The notes below the pieces were generated by a model. That model saw only the letters and a list, made by a program, of their open reading frames with translations, searched no databases and was not told the origin of the DNA. Both the position numbers and the translations under genes were made by a program. This document shows positions 12,817-21,188 of a DNA stretch of 32,034 nt, piece by piece. Origin of the DNA: a bacterium (GTDB taxonomy: Bacteria > Ratteibacteria > UBA8468 > B48-G9 > DTJG01); the NCBI GenBank assembly GCA_029552985.1, contig JAKPDB010000143.1, positions 1-32,034 on the forward strand. The letters run 5' to 3'. Positions within the stretch are counted from its first letter, which is position 1; the number at the start of each line of letters is the position of its first letter.

Positions 12817-13908
12817 ATGAAGGGATATCTCGTTATTGAAGACGGCACTATATATACTGGCGAAACATTTGGCAGCCAGGCCGAACGATTTGGTGAATTA
12901 ATTTTCAATACAAGTATGACAGGATACCAGGAAATCCTTTATGACCCATCCTATAAAGGTCAAATCGTTGTCATGACATATCCACTGATAGGAAACTATG
13001 GAATCAACAGCCAGGATGTGGAATCATACAAAATTCATCTTGAAGGATTTGTTGTCAGGGAAAAAAGCAAAATCTATTCAAACTGGAAAGCAGAGAAATC
13101 CATTGACCAGATTTTCAAGGAAAACGGAATTACTGGAATTGAGGGTGTTGACACAAGAAAAATCACAGAACTTATTAGAGATAAGGGCGCACAGAAAGCA
13201 GGGATATTTGTCGGCAGTCAGGATAAAAGACAGATGCTTGAAAAGGTTAGAAAATCTCCTTGTATTGTTGGCAGGGATATAGTAAAAGATGTTATCAAAG
13301 GTGAGCCATTTATCTGGAATAATCAGGGTAAATATAAGGTTGTTGTGATTGACTGCGGTGTAAAATACAACATTCTCAGACTTCTTGCAGAAAAAAATCT
13401 GAAGGTAGTAGTGTATCCGGCGAATGCGCCATATGAAGAAATAGATAAGGAAAAACCTGATGGGATTTTAATTTCCAATGGACCAGGAGATCCTGAGCCA
13501 TTGACATATGTAATAAAAACTGTTTCAAATCTTGTTGAAAAATATCCTGTGTTTGGAATCTGCCTTGGTCAGCAAATTCTTGGACAGGTTTTTGGCGGGA
13601 AAACGTATAAATTAAAGTTCGGCCATCATGGTGCAAACCATCCCACAAAAGATTTGAAGACAGGAAAAATCTCAATAACAGTCCAGAACCATGGATTTTG
13701 CGTTGACATCAATTCAATCAAGGACCCAAATATTGTTATTACGCATATCAATCTCAATGACCAGACACTTGAGGGCATAGAACACAAGAAACTTCCTGTA
13801 TTCAGCGTTCAATTTCATCCAGAAGATTCACCTGGTCCACAGGATGCACGATATCTGTTTGAAAAATTTTATAGGATCATTGATCATGGGAAAAAGAACA
13901 GACATTAA
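12817..13908 (+). CDS. carA: Carbamoyl-phosphate synthase small (glutaminase) subunit
   Basis: [70 protein letters not shown]. Confidence 0.97.
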
Positions 13909-15535
13909 GAAAATTTTGCTCATAGGTTCAGGACCCATTGTCATAGGGCAGGCATGTGAATTTGACTATTCAGGTTCACAGGCATGCAAGGCATTGAAAG
14001 AAGAGGGCTATAAAGTGGTTCTTGTTAACAGCAATCCTGCAACTATTATGACAGACCCAGAAATGGCTGACAAAATTTATCTTGAACCGCTTATCCCTGA
14101 AATTCTTGAGAAAATCATAGAAAAAGAAAGACCTGATGCTTTGCTTCCGACTCTCGGCGGACAGACCGCATTGAATCTTGCCACAAAGCTATATGAAATG
14201 GGAGTTCTTCAGAAGTATCATATGAAAATGATAGGTGCAAACTACCAAGCAATAAAAAAGGCAGAAGACAGAGAATGTTTCAAACAATCAATGAAAAAAA
14301 TTGGGCTGAAAGTGCCTGAAAGCGGGATTGCCCGCAGTTTGAGAGAAGCAATTGAGGTGGTAGGAAAAATTGGTTTTCCTGCTATCATAAGACCTGCATA
14401 TACACTTGGAGGTACCGGTGGTTCTGTGGCATATAACATAGAAGAGTTTGAAGAACTTGCAGAGGCAGGATTGAAGGCAAGTTTTATTGGAGAAATTCTT
14501 GTGGAACAATCAGTCCTTGGATGGAAGGAGTATGAATTAGAAGTAATGAGAGACCTGAAAGACAATGTGGTGATTATCTGCTCAATAGAGAATTTTGATC
14601 CAATGGGAGTTCATACAGGAGACAGCATCACAGTTGCACCTGTTCAAACCCTAACAGATAAAGAATATCAAGAAATGAGAAATGCGGCCATATCAATCAT
14701 CAGAGAAATAGGCGTTGAAACAGGTGGTTCAAATATTCAATTTGCAGTAAATCCTGAAAATGGAGAGATGGTTGTCATCGAAATGAATCCCCGCGTATCA
14801 AGGAGTTCAGCCCTTGCTTCAAAGGCAACAGGTTTCCCGATTGCGAAAATTGCCACAAAGCTTGCCATTGGTTATACGCTTGATGAGATACCAAACGATA
14901 TAACAAAAAAGACGCCTGCCTGTTTTGAACCTGCCATTGACTATTGTGTTGTCAAAATCCCAAAGTTTAATTTTGAAAAATTTCCAGGAGCATCTGATGT
15001 GTTAACCACCTCAATGAAGTCGGTTGGCGAAGTCATGGCGATTGGCAGGACTTTTAAAGAAGCGTTCCAGAAGGCGCTTAGAAGCATGGAAGAAAATTTT
15101 GCGGGCTTTGAAGATATTGCATTGAAACTTGACCTTCATGAGGGATTGAGAATTCCAAATTCAAAAAGGGTCTTCTATATTAAACAAGCTCTGAAACAGA
15201 ATTGGACCATTGATGAAATTTATCATCTGACAAAAATTGACAGATGGTTTCTTGCAAACATCAAAGAAATCGTTGATTTTGAAAAAATGCTTGAAAGACA
15301 AAAAGGAAAAACTGTTGATTTTGAAACGATGAAAAAAGCAAAGGAACTGGGATTTTCAGACAGTCATATTGCTAAAATTTTGGGATGCAGTGAGAGAAAA
15401 ATCCGAAATCTGCGAAAAAGGTATAACATAGTCGTTGACTATAAATGTGTGGACACATGTGCAGGTGAATTTGTTGCCTATACCCCTTATTATTATTCAA
15501 CTTACGAACATCCAGAAGTAATAAAAATCACATGA
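13886..15535 (+). CDS. carB: Carbamoyl-phosphate synthase large subunit, N-terminal half
   Basis: [69 protein letters not shown]; internal start at 13886 preferred over ORF-track 13844. Confidence 0.95.
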
Positions 15536-17085
15536 AGAAAAAGGTTGTGATACTTGGCGCAGGGCCAAATAGGATAGGTCAGGGAATAGAGTTTGATTAT
15601 TGCTGCGTTCATGCTTCATTTGCCCTGAAAGAAATTGGCTATGAAAGTATCATGGTGAATTGTAATCCTGAAACTGTTAGTACCGATTATGATACCTCTG
15701 ATAAACTCTACTTTGAGCCGCTGATATTTGAGGATGTGATGAACATTATTGAAAAAGAAAATCCTCTGGGTGTTATACTACAATTTGGAGGCCAAACCCC
15801 ATTAAAACTTGCAATTCCATTAAAAAAGGCAAAAGTGAACATTCTTGGAACAAGCCCTGACGCAATCGATATTGCAGAGGATAGAAAGAAATTTAAAAAA
15901 CTCCTTGATAAACTTGGGCTTATGCAACCACCGAGTGGTACAGCCAGAAATAAGAAAGATGCATTAAAGATTGCTCACCAACTTGAATATCCTGTACTTG
16001 TAAGGCCATCATATGTGCTGGGTGGAAGGGCGATGCAGATCGTCTATGACGATGGTATGCTGCAGGAGTTTATGGAAAAAGCCATTGAAGTTTCGCCAGA
16101 ACATCCTGTGTTAATAGACAAATTTCTTGAGGATGCCGCTGAGGTGGATGTTGATGCAATATGTGATGGAAAAACATGCGTGATTGGTGGAGTAATGGAA
16201 CACGTGGAGCAGGCAGGTATTCATTCTGGAGACAGTGCGATGGTGCTACCACCTTATAGTTTGAAGGAAAAAGTCATTAACGAAATCAAACAAGCAACAA
16301 AAAAACTCGCCCTATCTCTGAACGTTGTGGGACTGTTGAATATTCAATTTGCTGTGAAGGACGACAATGTTTATATTCTTGAGGTAAATCCACGCGCTTC
16401 AAGAACTGTGCCTTTTGTAAGCAAGGTTACAGGTGTTCCCCTTGCAAAACTTGCAACGAAAATCATGCTGGGTATGAGTTTAAAAAAATTGCATTTTGAA
16501 AAAGAAATTCGTCTCAATTATTTTGCTGTAAAAGAATCAGTGTTTCCATTCAACAGATTCTCTGGTATCGATGCTGTGTTAGGTCCTGAAATGAGGTCCA
16601 CCGGTGAAGTAATCGGCATTGACGAAAGTTTTGAAATGGCGTACGCAAAAAGCCAGCTGGCAGCAGGTCAAAATCTTCCACTCAGTGGAAATATTTTTAT
16701 CAGTGTTCGGGACAATCATAAAGAGTTAATTTATCCTATAGCAAAGGGTTTTGCTGAACTTGGATTCAAAATTATCACGACTGCTGGAACCGGGAAATTT
16801 TTGTCAGAAAAAGGGCTTGAAGTAACAATTATCGGCAAACTTCATGAAGCAGTAAGACCCAATGTCATTGACTATATAAAAAACAATCAGATTCAGATGA
16901 TTATCAATACTCCAACAGGAAACAGGCCAAAACAGGATATTGTTTCTATCAGAACAATGGCAATACATAGAAGCATTCCTCTTATCACAACAGCGCGAGC
17001 AGCGCATGCAACATTGCTTGCAATGAAAAGATTAAAGGAGCACAAAATACAGGTAAAGGATATTAAACAATACCATATGATGTAG
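15532..17085 (+). CDS. carB: Carbamoyl-phosphate synthase large subunit, C-terminal half including MGS-like allosteric domain
   Basis: [93 protein letters not shown]... Confidence 0.95.
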
Positions 17086-17147: not shown

Positions 17148-17843
17148 ATGGAAGGAAAAACTATTCAACAACAGATTGAAGCCCTGACGAAAATCAGTAA
17201 GGCAATTACTTCTGACCTGTACCTTGAGGACATTCTCAAACTCATAGTGCTTGTGACTGCAGAGCTAATGGGCTCCAACATCTGTTCTATACTTTTGCTT
17301 GATGAAAAAACCAAAAAACTACATATCAGAGCGACCCAGAGCGTCAGTGAAGAATATAATAAAAAACCACCATTAAGCATAGGCGAAGGTATTGCTGGAA
17401 AGGCTGTAAAGGAAAACAGACCCATTGTTGTCAAAGATGTTACAAAGGAAGAAGAATATAAATACAGGGATATTGCCATAAAAGAAGGACTCTGTTCTTT
17501 ATTATGCGTGCCCCTTGCAATCAAAAATCGGGTAATCGGTGTTATCAATTGCTACACTTCAAAACCGCATGATTTTACAGAAACAGAAATAAAAATTTTG
17601 ACCACAATTGCAAATCAGGCGGCAATGGCAATTGAAAATGCAGAACTGCTAGTAAAAAGTAAGGTGATCCAGGAAGAGCTTGAAACGAGAAAGCTTGTTG
17701 AAAGAGCAAAAGGAATTTTGATGAAGAAAGAAAACCTTACTGAAGAGGAGGCATACAGGAAAATCAGAAAGTACAGCATGGATAAGCGCAAGACAATGAA
17801 GGAAATAGCCGAAGCCATTATTCTTGCCTCGGATTTGATATAA
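17148..17843 (+). CDS. GAF domain - ANTAR domain RNA-binding antitermination regulator
   Basis: N-terminal GAF pattern (SNICSILLLDEKTKKLHIRATQS...GEGIAGKAVKENRPIVV...SLLCVPLAIKNRVIGVINCYT) and C-terminal ANTAR (LVERAKGILMKKENLTEEEAYRKIRKYSMDKRKTMKEIAEAIILA). Confidence 0.92.
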   Translation: MEGKTIQQQIEALTKISKAITSDLYLEDILKLIVLVTAELMGSNICSILLLDEKTKKLHIRATQSVSEEYNKKPPLSIGEGIAGKAVKENRPIVVKDVTKEEEYKYRDIAIKEGLCSLLCVPLAIKNRVIGVINCYTSKPHDFTETEIKILTTIANQAAMAIENAELLVKSKVIQEELETRKLVERAKGILMKKENLTEEEAYRKIRKYSMDKRKTMKEIAEAIILASDLI

Positions 17844-17845
17844 AT

Positions 17846-17873
17846 TTGACAGATAAAATTTTTGTGGTAATAT
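17846..17873 (+). promoter_or_regulatory. Candidate sigma70 promoter driving leader RNA 1
   Basis: TTGACA (17846-17851), 16 nt, TAATAT (17868-17873); predicted start about 17880, just before hairpin P1. Confidence 0.6.
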
Positions 17874-17892
17874 GTTACTGAATTAGATTCGT

Positions 17893-17925
17893 GCACGAAG
17901 TTGTGCGAGCTGGACGATGAGGTCC
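17893..17925 (+). ncRNA. Candidate ANTAR-responsive tandem hairpin (leader 1: P1 17893-17906, P2 17912-17925)
   Basis: P1 GCAC-GAAGTT-GTGC and P2 GGAC-GATGAG-GTCC: 4-bp stems, hexaloops closed by C-G, 5-nt linker; directly downstream of an ANTAR gene and upstream of a nitrogen gene. Confidence 0.75.
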
Positions 17926-17963
17926 TTTTCGGCGCAGAATGCCGGAAGGGACTTTTTTATTTT
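17922..17963 (+). terminator. Intrinsic terminator in leader 1 sharing its 5' arm with P2
   Basis: GTCCTTTTCGGC-[GCAGAAT]-GCCGGAAGGGAC (12 bp incl. two G.U) followed by TTTTTTATTTT; GTCC 17922-17925 is also the 3' arm of P2. Confidence 0.85.
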
Positions 17964-17983
17964 AACCAGGACAGGGGGAAAAA

Positions 17984-19552
17984 ATGTCTTACAGCAAACC
18001 AAATGCCAGTGCAGCCACAGGTACGAGAAATCGTGTGCATCCTTCGCCACTATCAGGGTTATGCGTCACATGTCTTGATGGTTGTATTGGACTATGTGAA
18101 GTCGCAAAATCAGGGATAAGGGGCAGAGAAATACTTTATCCCCAGCCATTTGGAAGCATTGTAGCTGGTTCTGAAAAGGACTACCCGATTGATTTTTCTC
18201 ATTTCAATATCATGGGTAGCTGCGTTGGCGCACAAGGAGTTGAACCAGATTCTGACCATGCCATATTTCCAAACGTGGATATATCAACAGAAATTGGCTT
18301 TCAGAATAAACTGAAACTGGATGTACCGTTTTTTACAGGCGCCCTGGGTTCAACAGATGTTGCGAAAATTAACTGGGAAGAAATTGCAATAGGCGCTGCG
18401 TTGTGTGGAACCATTGTGGTTATAGGAGAAAATGTATGCGGAATGGACCCAGAGGCAAAATTTCAAAATGGAAAAATTGTCAAATCTCCTGAAATGGAAA
18501 GAAGAATAAAGAGTTATCAGAGATGGCACAATGGAAGAGGGACTATTGTTGTTCAATATAATGTGGAGGATAGCAGATTTGGAGTGCCTGAGTATGTTGC
18601 AGGACTCGGCGTTGAAGCCATAGAACCAAAATGGGGTCAGGGTGCAAAGGATATTGGCGGAGAAGTGAAACTTCATGACCTTGAGTTTGCAAAAGAGATG
18701 AAAAAAAGAAATTATCTGGTGTTTCCTGATCCTGACAATCCCATCACTCAGAAAGAATTTAAAGAAGGAACCATCAAGGAATTTGAAAGACATTCAAGGT
18801 TGGGAATGGTGGATGAAGAAGGATTTTATAAAGAAGTTGAACGATTGAGGAAGATTGGCTTCAAGTATGTCACATTGAAAACTGGTGCGTATAGACCGGC
18901 AGACCTTGCAAGAGCAATAAAATGTGCATCAGTTGCGAAAATTGACCTTCTTACAGTAGATGGTGCTGGTGGTGGAACAGGCATGAGTCCCTGGAGAATG
19001 ATGAATGAATGGGGTATTCCAACAGTGGAACTTGAATGCTTGCTCTATCAGATGCTTAAAAAAATTGAAAAGAAGTCCTGGTACATACCATCAGTGGCAA
19101 TGGCAGGCGGGTTTGCACTTGAAGACCAGATTTTTAAGGGGATAGCTCTTGCTGCGCCATATATCAAAGCCATTTGTATTGGACGCGCGACCTTTGCTGC
19201 AGTGATGGCAGCAAAAACTGTCGGAAATCTTGTGAAAAAAGGCAAAATACCAGAGGAATACAAAAAGTATGGAACTACAATTGAGCAGATTTTCGTTTCT
19301 GCTGAACCGTTGAAGGCAAAATTTGGAAAAGATTTTAAGAATATTCCAGCTGGTGCTATTGGAATGTATACCTACTATGATAGGCTGGCAACCGGTCTTA
19401 AACAATTGATGGCAGGCGAAAGGAAATTTGCACTCAAATATATTTCGCGACGGGATATTGCAGCAATTACAAAACAGGCATCTGAGATATCTGGTATTCC
19501 TTATGTAATGGACTGTGATAAAGAACTTGTGGAAAAAATACTGGATGAATAG
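17984..19552 (+). CDS. FMN-binding glutamate synthase family protein (stand-alone GltB central domain with N-terminal Cys motif)
   Basis: VDGAGGGTGMSPWRMMNEWGIPTVE, KWGQGAKDIGGEV, N-terminal LCVTCLDGCIGLCEVAKSG; no GATase or GXGXG domain. Confidence 0.85.
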   Translation: MSYSKPNASAATGTRNRVHPSPLSGLCVTCLDGCIGLCEVAKSGIRGREILYPQPFGSIVAGSEKDYPIDFSHFNIMGSCVGAQGVEPDSDHAIFPNVDISTEIGFQNKLKLDVPFFTGALGSTDVAKINWEEIAIGAALCGTIVVIGENVCGMDPEAKFQNGKIVKSPEMERRIKSYQRWHNGRGTIVVQYNVEDSRFGVPEYVAGLGVEAIEPKWGQGAKDIGGEVKLHDLEFAKEMKKRNYLVFPDPDNPITQKEFKEGTIKEFERHSRLGMVDEEGFYKEVERLRKIGFKYVTLKTGAYRPADLARAIKCASVAKIDLLTVDGAGGGTGMSPWRMMNEWGIPTVELECLLYQMLKKIEKKSWYIPSVAMAGGFALEDQIFKGIALAAPYIKAICIGRATFAAVMAAKTVGNLVKKGKIPEEYKKYGTTIEQIFVSAEPLKAKFGKDFKNIPAGAIGMYTYYDRLATGLKQLMAGERKFALKYISRRDIAAITKQASEISGIPYVMDCDKELVEKILDE

Positions 19553-19565
19553 ATTTTCGAAAATC
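19552..19565. repeat. Perfect 14-bp palindrome GATTTTCGAAAATC
   Basis: Self-complementary; overlaps the last base of the upstream stop codon. Confidence 0.7.
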
Positions 19566-19589
19566 GGACAGCACGATATAGAAAAAATT

Positions 19590-19690
19590 CAGTAAGCGAC
19601 GAAGATTACTGGACAATGAAGTCCAGAGCCCATCAGGGAAGATTTCAATAAACCACCGAAGGTTTTCAGTCCAATAACGACGTTGTTATT
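19590..19690 (+). ncRNA. Candidate ANTAR-responsive leader 2 with four hexaloop hairpins
   Basis: H1 19590-19611 CAGTAAGC-GACGAA-GATTACTG (one G.A mismatch); H2 19609-19626 CTGGAC-AATGAA-GTCCAG; H3 19650-19665 AAACC-ACCGAA-GGTTT; H4 19673-19690 AATAAC-GACGTT-GTTATT. H2 matches leader 1 P2 at 14 of 16 positions. Confidence 0.65.
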
Positions 19691-19781
19691 CTATTAATAG
19701 TTGAATATCTTTAAAGAGATAAGAGGGATATTTTTAGAGTTTCGAGTTTAGGGTTTCATCGAGGGCACGACATCATTTGTT

Positions 19782-19804
19782 CCCTCTCCCTTGATGGGTG
19801 AGGG
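19782..19804. repeat. Imperfect palindrome CCCTCTCCCTTGATGGGTGAGGG, possible REP-like element
   Basis: CCCTC-T-CCC / GGG-T-GAGGG arms with TTGAT loop; resembles dispersed intergenic palindromes seen in many bacterial genomes. Confidence 0.45.
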
Positions 19805-19865
19805 TGCAAAGGAAGGGTAGGGAAGAGTAAAAATTCGCGCAAACTTCTAACAAAAAGGGAGAAAT

Positions 19866-21188
19866 ATGACGTCAAAAGACGTATTGAAGATGGTTAAGGA
19901 AAATGATGTAAGGTTTGTCAGATTATGGTTTACTGACCTTCTTGGACAGGTAAAAAGTTTTGCAATCACAAGCAGAGAACTTGAAGGAGCTCTTGAAAAC
20001 GGGATGGGTTTTGATGGTTCATCAATCACCGGCTATCAAAGAATAGAAGAATCTGACATGATTGCGATGCCAGACCCTTCCACTTTTGCGATACTTCCCT
20101 GGAGGCCAAAAGAACATGCTGTCGCAAGAATGATATGCGATGTGATGCAACCTGGCGGCAAACCATACGAAGGAGACCCAAGATTTGTGCTTAAAAAGAT
20201 GCTTAATGTAATGAAAAAATCCGGATTTTCTCATTACTATGTGGGACCAGAACTTGAATTTTTCTACCTGAAAAATGACAGATCAAACGAAACTCTGGAC
20301 GCCGGTGGATACTTCGATCTTACTACTCTTGATATTGCATCAGACCTGAGAAGAGATACAGTGCTTGCTCTTGAAAGCATGGGCATAAAAGTTGAGTACT
20401 CGCATCATGAGGTAGGTCCTTCTCAACACGAAATAGATATGAGATATGAAGACGCCCTGAAAATGGCTGATAATGTCATCACCTACAGAGTGGTTGTTAA
20501 AGAAATAGCAAGCATGCATGGCGTTTATGCAACATTTATGCCAAAACCGATTTTTGGTGTCAATGGAAGCGGTATGCATACTCATCAATCTCTTTTCATC
20601 GACGACAAAAATGCGTTTTTTGACCCAAAAGACCAGTATCACCTTTCTGATGTCGCAAAAAAATTTATTGCAGGGCAACTTGTTCATGCGAAAGAAATAT
20701 GTGCGGTATTTGCTCAATGGGTGAACTCCTATAAACGGCTGGTACCAGGATATGAAGCACCAGTTTACATCGCCTGGTCACAAAGAAACAGGTCTGCATT
20801 AATCAGGGTTCCATATTACCATCCAGGTAAACAACAGGCAACCAGAGCAGAATTTAGAGCATGCGACCCTTCGTGCAATCCATATTTGACCTTTGCCTGT
20901 CTTCTTGGAGCAGGATTACAGGGTATAAAAAATGACTACACCTTGAAATCTCCAATAGACCGGAACCTTTATCATCTTTCTGAAGTTGAACGAAAACAGA
21001 TGGGAATAGAAAGTTTACCCGGAAACCTTGGTGAGGCAATTTCCAATCTTGAACAAAGCAAATTGGTAAAAGAAATTCTCGGAGAACACATTTTTGGAAG
21101 ATTTTTAAAAATAAAGAAACAGGAATGGGAAGATTACAGAATTCAGGTGACAGAGTATGAACTTCAAAAATATCTGCCAGTTCTCTGA
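19866..21188 (+). CDS. glnA: Glutamine synthetase type I (paralog 1)
   Basis: MGFDGSSITGYQRIEESDM, VGPELEFFY, SHHEVGPSQHEIDMRY, FMPKPIFGVNGSGMHTHQSLF, NSYKRLVPGYEAP, RNRSALIRVP. Confidence 0.96.
   Translation: MTSKDVLKMVKENDVRFVRLWFTDLLGQVKSFAITSRELEGALENGMGFDGSSITGYQRIEESDMIAMPDPSTFAILPWRPKEHAVARMICDVMQPGGKPYEGDPRFVLKKMLNVMKKSGFSHYYVGPELEFFYLKNDRSNETLDAGGYFDLTTLDIASDLRRDTVLALESMGIKVEYSHHEVGPSQHEIDMRYEDALKMADNVITYRVVVKEIASMHGVYATFMPKPIFGVNGSGMHTHQSLFIDDKNAFFDPKDQYHLSDVAKKFIAGQLVHAKEICAVFAQWVNSYKRLVPGYEAPVYIAWSQRNRSALIRVPYYHPGKQQATRAEFRACDPSCNPYLTFACLLGAGLQGIKNDYTLKSPIDRNLYHLSEVERKQMGIESLPGNLGEAISNLEQSKLVKEILGEHIFGRFLKIKKQEWEDYRIQVTEYELQKYLPVL

Follow-up and report, generated by a model that had tools for sequence, protein, structure and literature searches.

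A predicted ANTAR-type transcription attenuator with G1 hexaloops before a glutamate-synthase-like gene in an uncultured bacterial phylum

The leader of an FMN-binding glutamate-synthase-like gene (the FMN gene) very probably acts as a transcription attenuator of the ANTAR type. We read it in this way because its predicted folds are mutually exclusive, because homologous leaders carry tandem hexaloops with a constant G at loop position 4 (G4), and because a single GAF-ANTAR gene adjoins it. All coordinates refer to the window, the whole stretch of 32,034 nucleotides that was analysed, and all features discussed lie on the + strand. The gene of the GAF-ANTAR one-component regulator (17148-17843, 231 aa), the presumed cognate antiterminator, is separated by a gap of 140 nt from the presumed target, the FMN gene (17984-19552, 522 aa, ATG at 17984; Pfam Glu_synthase 2e-14). 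By sequence reading, a sigma-70-like promoter TTGACA-16-TAATAT with a TG ahead of the -10 element is found at 17846-17873. It is followed by two hexaloop hairpins, P1 (17893-17906, GCAC-GAAGTT-GTGC, loop 17897-17902) and P2 (17912-17925, GGAC-GATGAG-GTCC, loop 17916-17921), each with G at loop position 1 (G1), G4 and a C-G closing pair. An intrinsic terminator of 12-16 pairs with a U6 tract (17919-17958) shares the loop and the 3' arm of P2 as its 5' arm. A previous sequence-only reading of this DNA had placed the promoter, both hairpins and the terminator here, and they are read directly from the sequence. It also called the switch complete. The parts are present, while the term is too strong for a leader whose protein binding and readthrough we infer, and a larger hexaloop array before glnA had gone unmentioned.

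The dual-hairpin motif as defined by Ramesh and colleagues (2012, PMC3369931) has two hairpins in tandem, each with a stem of 3 bp or more and a 6-nt loop, an A at loop position 1 and a G at position 4 of both loops, and an overlap of P2 with an intrinsic terminator that makes the two mutually exclusive. P1 and P2 form such a tandem, with a linker of 5 nt (17907-17911) inside the eut range of about 5-12 nt. The core stem of the terminator pairs 17922-17933 with 17941-17952 and is followed by six T at 17953-17958. It can be extended to 16 pairs from a start at 17919/17920 within the P2 loop, which makes the overlap larger than the GTCC named originally. The full leader is predicted to fold as P1 plus the 16-pair terminator, with a minimum free energy of -32.5 kcal/mol (z -4.6), and a leader truncated after P2 forms both hairpins, P1 and P2. 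Upon stepwise lengthening, P2 is present in the minimum-energy fold at every length from 17925 to 17949 and loses its arm to the terminator by 17952. The exclusivity of P2 and terminator is thus borne out in the predicted folds. P1, described before as a 4-bp stem, has 8 pairs and an additional outer helix in the predicted fold.

By default, RNA polymerase starting from the promoter would make P1 and then the terminator, and stop. With the GAF domain in its active state, an ANTAR dimer would grip the hexaloops of P1 and P2, each G4 being flipped out onto a conserved Tyr. With P2 held closed, its 3' arm and loop would be unavailable as the 5' arm of the terminator, and transcription would read through into the FMN gene and probably onward into glnA.

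When the 140-nt gap was shuffled 20,000 times with its dinucleotide content kept, a qualifying tandem pair (R1/G4 loops, both C-G-closed) arose only once, and in no shuffle was such a pair overlapped by a terminator. On both strands of the whole window only two qualifying tandem pairs exist, one before the FMN gene and one before glnA. These counts weigh against the view that the terminator simply ends the upstream GAF-ANTAR transcript, or attenuates constitutively, and that P1 and P2 are coincidental small hairpins. The terminator does lie about 76 nt past the ANTAR stop codon, a usual position for such an element. However, homologous leaders show tandem hexaloops again, also when the ANTAR gene is divergent or at another place, and a promoter stands between the ANTAR stop codon and the terminator, likewise in relatives. 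The promoter match is statistically weak on its own (7 matches found in the region, 7.2 expected); in 20 of 24 related leaders a match of 10-12 out of 12 precedes the first hairpin. We consider an ordinary or constitutive terminator very unlikely. A covariance model was trained on 21 units with the P1/P2 site of the window left out. It ranks 17893-17925 first in the window (22.2 bits, E 0.0024), and the next two places fall in the glnA leader. In a genome-wide run over the own assembly the model did not recover the P1/P2 site, apparently since scoring covered only 150 of the 432 first-look candidates, and the ranking is therefore taken from the unfiltered search of the window. Copies of the P2 motif with one mismatch elsewhere in the own genome were dismissed as chance, being inside or antisense to open frames, a tRNA and a cold-shock-like gene.

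Relatives of the FMN gene provided 10 readable leaders within the phylum (including that of the window) and 80 loci from many phyla among the matches listed. Tandem R1/G4 hexaloop pairs with both loops C-G-closed are found 32 times in homologous leaders and 0.1 times in shuffles. The stems covary, with 94% of cells paired and 52 double changes, in rows picked because they pair. The shuffle counts are therefore the fairer test. With no loop letters demanded, 61 of 74 such hairpins carry G at position 4, and position 1 holds A in 47, G in 18, C in 7 and T in 2; shuffles show neither preference. Both loops of the window, GAAGTT and GATGAG, keep G4, and the A at position 1 is absent from both. This double G1 is one point against the ANTAR reading, as the published consensus is A, and an A-to-U change, the sole substitution tested there, lowers the EutV response (PMC3369931). 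Among actinobacterial motifs, A at this position is only >50% conserved (PMC8164766). When every strong hexaloop hairpin is counted, the two most enriched classes are A1/G4 (5.7-fold) and G1/G4 (2-fold), and a double-G1 leader occurs again in L069. Based on the position-1 counts and the G1/G4 enrichment in homologous leaders, G1, present in about a quarter of the hairpins, is a regular minority state, and the double G1 is a natural minority variant at the level of sequence, in keeping with the variant suspected at the outset. Hexaloop position 1 may thus be G in nature. A hexaloop at the terminator apex was also considered as a general third site. In an automated test, the strict R1/G4 form is found in 0 of 49 terminators overlapped with P2 and in 6 of 223 controls, and the general claim was dropped; individual cases seen by eye in the phylum remain. 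In L068 and L076, two ANTAR hairpin pairs stand in series before one gene, and L076 pairs each with its own terminator.

The leader could in principle have another reader, a small-molecule riboswitch or a different RNA-binding protein. A glutamine-responsive riboswitch is conceivable before glnA/gltS genes. Rfam, however, holds no family matching the leader at E<=1, the conserved part consists of two small hairpins, G4 and C-G closing pairs, a known type of ANTAR ligand, and the single ANTAR gene detected in the assembly adjoins the leader. Such a reader is, in our judgement, even slightly less probable than the ordinary terminator, and we retain the ANTAR-type attenuator.

The product of the adjoining gene matches Pfam GAF_2 (6e-27) and ANTAR (1e-22), the latter profile (PF03861) with 80.1 bits at a cut-off of 27.3. 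Its predicted structure (pLDDT 89.7) comprises a GAF domain, a long helix and C-terminal helices. By sequence comparison it keeps the EutV residues R142, K143, K149, E160, Y164, R168, M172 and R175, of which R142, K149, E160, Y164 and M172 have been assigned roles in recognising G4 and in the loop plug (PMC8934654). Against the ANTAR reading, EutV residues K147, N173 and R177 are replaced by R, D and T, and this D and T are also present in Rv1626. The GAF domain is nearest to PtsP GAF domains, both by sequence and by fold, and gives a weak match to the NifA model. The NifA GAF domain of Azotobacter vinelandii binds 2-oxoglutarate (PMC8219145). Since the domain resembles those of the PtsP/NifA type, it is a reasoned guess by analogy that the signal would be nitrogen/carbon status, e.g. 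2-oxoglutarate or glutamine. According to Ramesh and colleagues, GAF-ANTAR proteins were still uncharacterised (PMC3369931), and we encountered no characterised one in the literature found. At 13844-17085, the carbamoyl-phosphate synthase large subunit appears by eye to be divided between two neighbouring genes (563 and 517 aa) beside carA.

An ANTAR match is present in 24 of 35 genomes of the phylum, nearly always as a single one. In 6 of 10 phylum genomes the ANTAR gene adjoins the FMN gene, on the same strand in G000 and G023 and divergently in G005, G006, G008 and G009. In other phyla, an ANTAR gene is found within 12 of the 80 listed loci. ANTAR orthologues of about 400 aa, with an N-terminus longer by about 170 aa, were observed in G003, G004, G010 and G011 (L014, L015, L017, L027).

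The covariance model was also run over the 35 phylum genomes. Nine of its ten matches at E<=0.13 outside the training set precede nitrogen genes: GDH four times (G002, G003, G015, G016), AmtB twice, a glutamine-dependent NAD synthase, a GATase gene and one FMN gene. The tenth apparently falls within an open frame. In G033 a fifth GDH leader, with a lower model score, adjoins its ANTAR gene, and several glnA genes of the phylum are also preceded by tandem hexaloops. A further point against the ANTAR reading is that two good ANTAR-type leaders, G016:C17 (L163, GDH) and G027:C70 (L170, NAD synthase), come from genomes in which no ANTAR gene was detected, possibly through an assembly gap. The P-II/amtB leader of the own genome lacks the motif, and its contig looks foreign. 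This contig, G000:C147 (L186, L188), carries the only P-II and amtB genes of the assembly; it is Bacteroidota-like by eye and may be a contamination. Ammonium assimilation in this uncultured phylum would have a one-component GAF-ANTAR switch at its centre.

About 1.7 kb downstream of the FMN leader, the intergenic stretch 19553-19865 contains an array of five C-G-closed R1/G4 hexaloop hairpins (19592-19690). It precedes glnA (19866-21188; TIGR00653 4e-167), a type I glutamine synthetase gene and presumed second target. The loops are GACGAA, AATGAA, AGGGAA, ACCGAA and GACGTT, starting at 19598, 19615, 19635, 19655 and 19679; one hairpin has a G.A mismatch and one has 3 bp only. Under the identical rule, no chain in 5,000 shuffles is longer than 2, compared with 5 here. 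The array has no good promoter match and no called intrinsic terminator, and without protein its RNA favours another fold (-27.6 vs -12.3 kcal/mol). Between array and glnA, 19715-19850 shows short matches elsewhere in the genome and has a repeat-derived look. Chains of at least three hairpins are present in 14 of 126 leaders (0.02 expected), 13 of them from this phylum, and chains of at least four in five leaders. Three FMN leaders (L007, L008, L009) and one amtB leader (L167) carry four-hairpin chains spaced 16-23 nt apart with no called intrinsic terminator. Such arrays could suggest that the GAF-ANTAR protein works by sequestration or on translation, with multi-hexaloop arrays as sponges. 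The EutX/Rli55 precedents (cited in PMC8934654) point in this direction, as does the missing terminator in the glnA array and in several arrays of relatives. At the FMN gene, however, a strong intrinsic terminator directly overlaps P2, which fits antitermination, and we give sequestration or translational control as little weight as another reader of the leader. The glnA array may be a second checkpoint after co-transcription with the FMN gene, or it may serve sequestration. Tentatively, and with slightly less than even confidence, we propose that the phylum has expanded ANTAR control from dual hairpins to arrays with 3-5 hexaloops at a spacing of about 16-26 nt, certain arrays lacking an intrinsic terminator (glnA of the window; FMN of G006, G008 and G009; amtB of G011). 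A GAF-ANTAR dimer might step along or coat an array, so that control would be graded or cooperative, or would act on Rho-dependent termination or on translation. The arrays with 3-5 hairpins are new here, and this mode is not described for ANTAR proteins in the literature found. Multi-hexaloop leaders could test loop-to-loop cycling of the ANTAR dimer.

A comparison with the EutV-controlled eut leaders of Enterococcus faecalis (Ramesh 2012, PMC3369931; Walshe 2022, PMC8934654) shows the same two hexaloop hairpins with G4, AC/GU closing pairs, a short linker and a P2 overlapping the terminator. The eut loops begin with A1 while both loops of the window begin with G1, and eut is served by a REC-ANTAR phosphorelay instead of a one-component GAF-ANTAR protein. 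The NasR/nasF leader of Klebsiella oxytoca (PMC7496416, PMC3369931) is also an antitermination system in a nitrogen operon with a one-component sensor-ANTAR protein, but NasR senses nitrate through a NIT domain whereas the window protein has a PtsP/NifA-like GAF domain. For glutamate synthase and numerous further nitrogen genes, the dual-hexaloop motif has already been predicted upstream (PMC3369931). The ANTAR RNAs predicted there for the Desulfotomaculum reducens glutamate synthase and the D. acetoxidans nitrogen regulon have the same target class and attenuator type; they differ in coming from another phylum, while the window has G1 loops and its phylum arrays of 3-5 hairpins. Firmicutes relatives of the FMN gene also have ANTAR genes nearby. 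Since every tested ANTAR feature except A1 is found in the leader of the window, it is filed, as judged from its sequence, as a variant with G1 loops of this known attenuator type.
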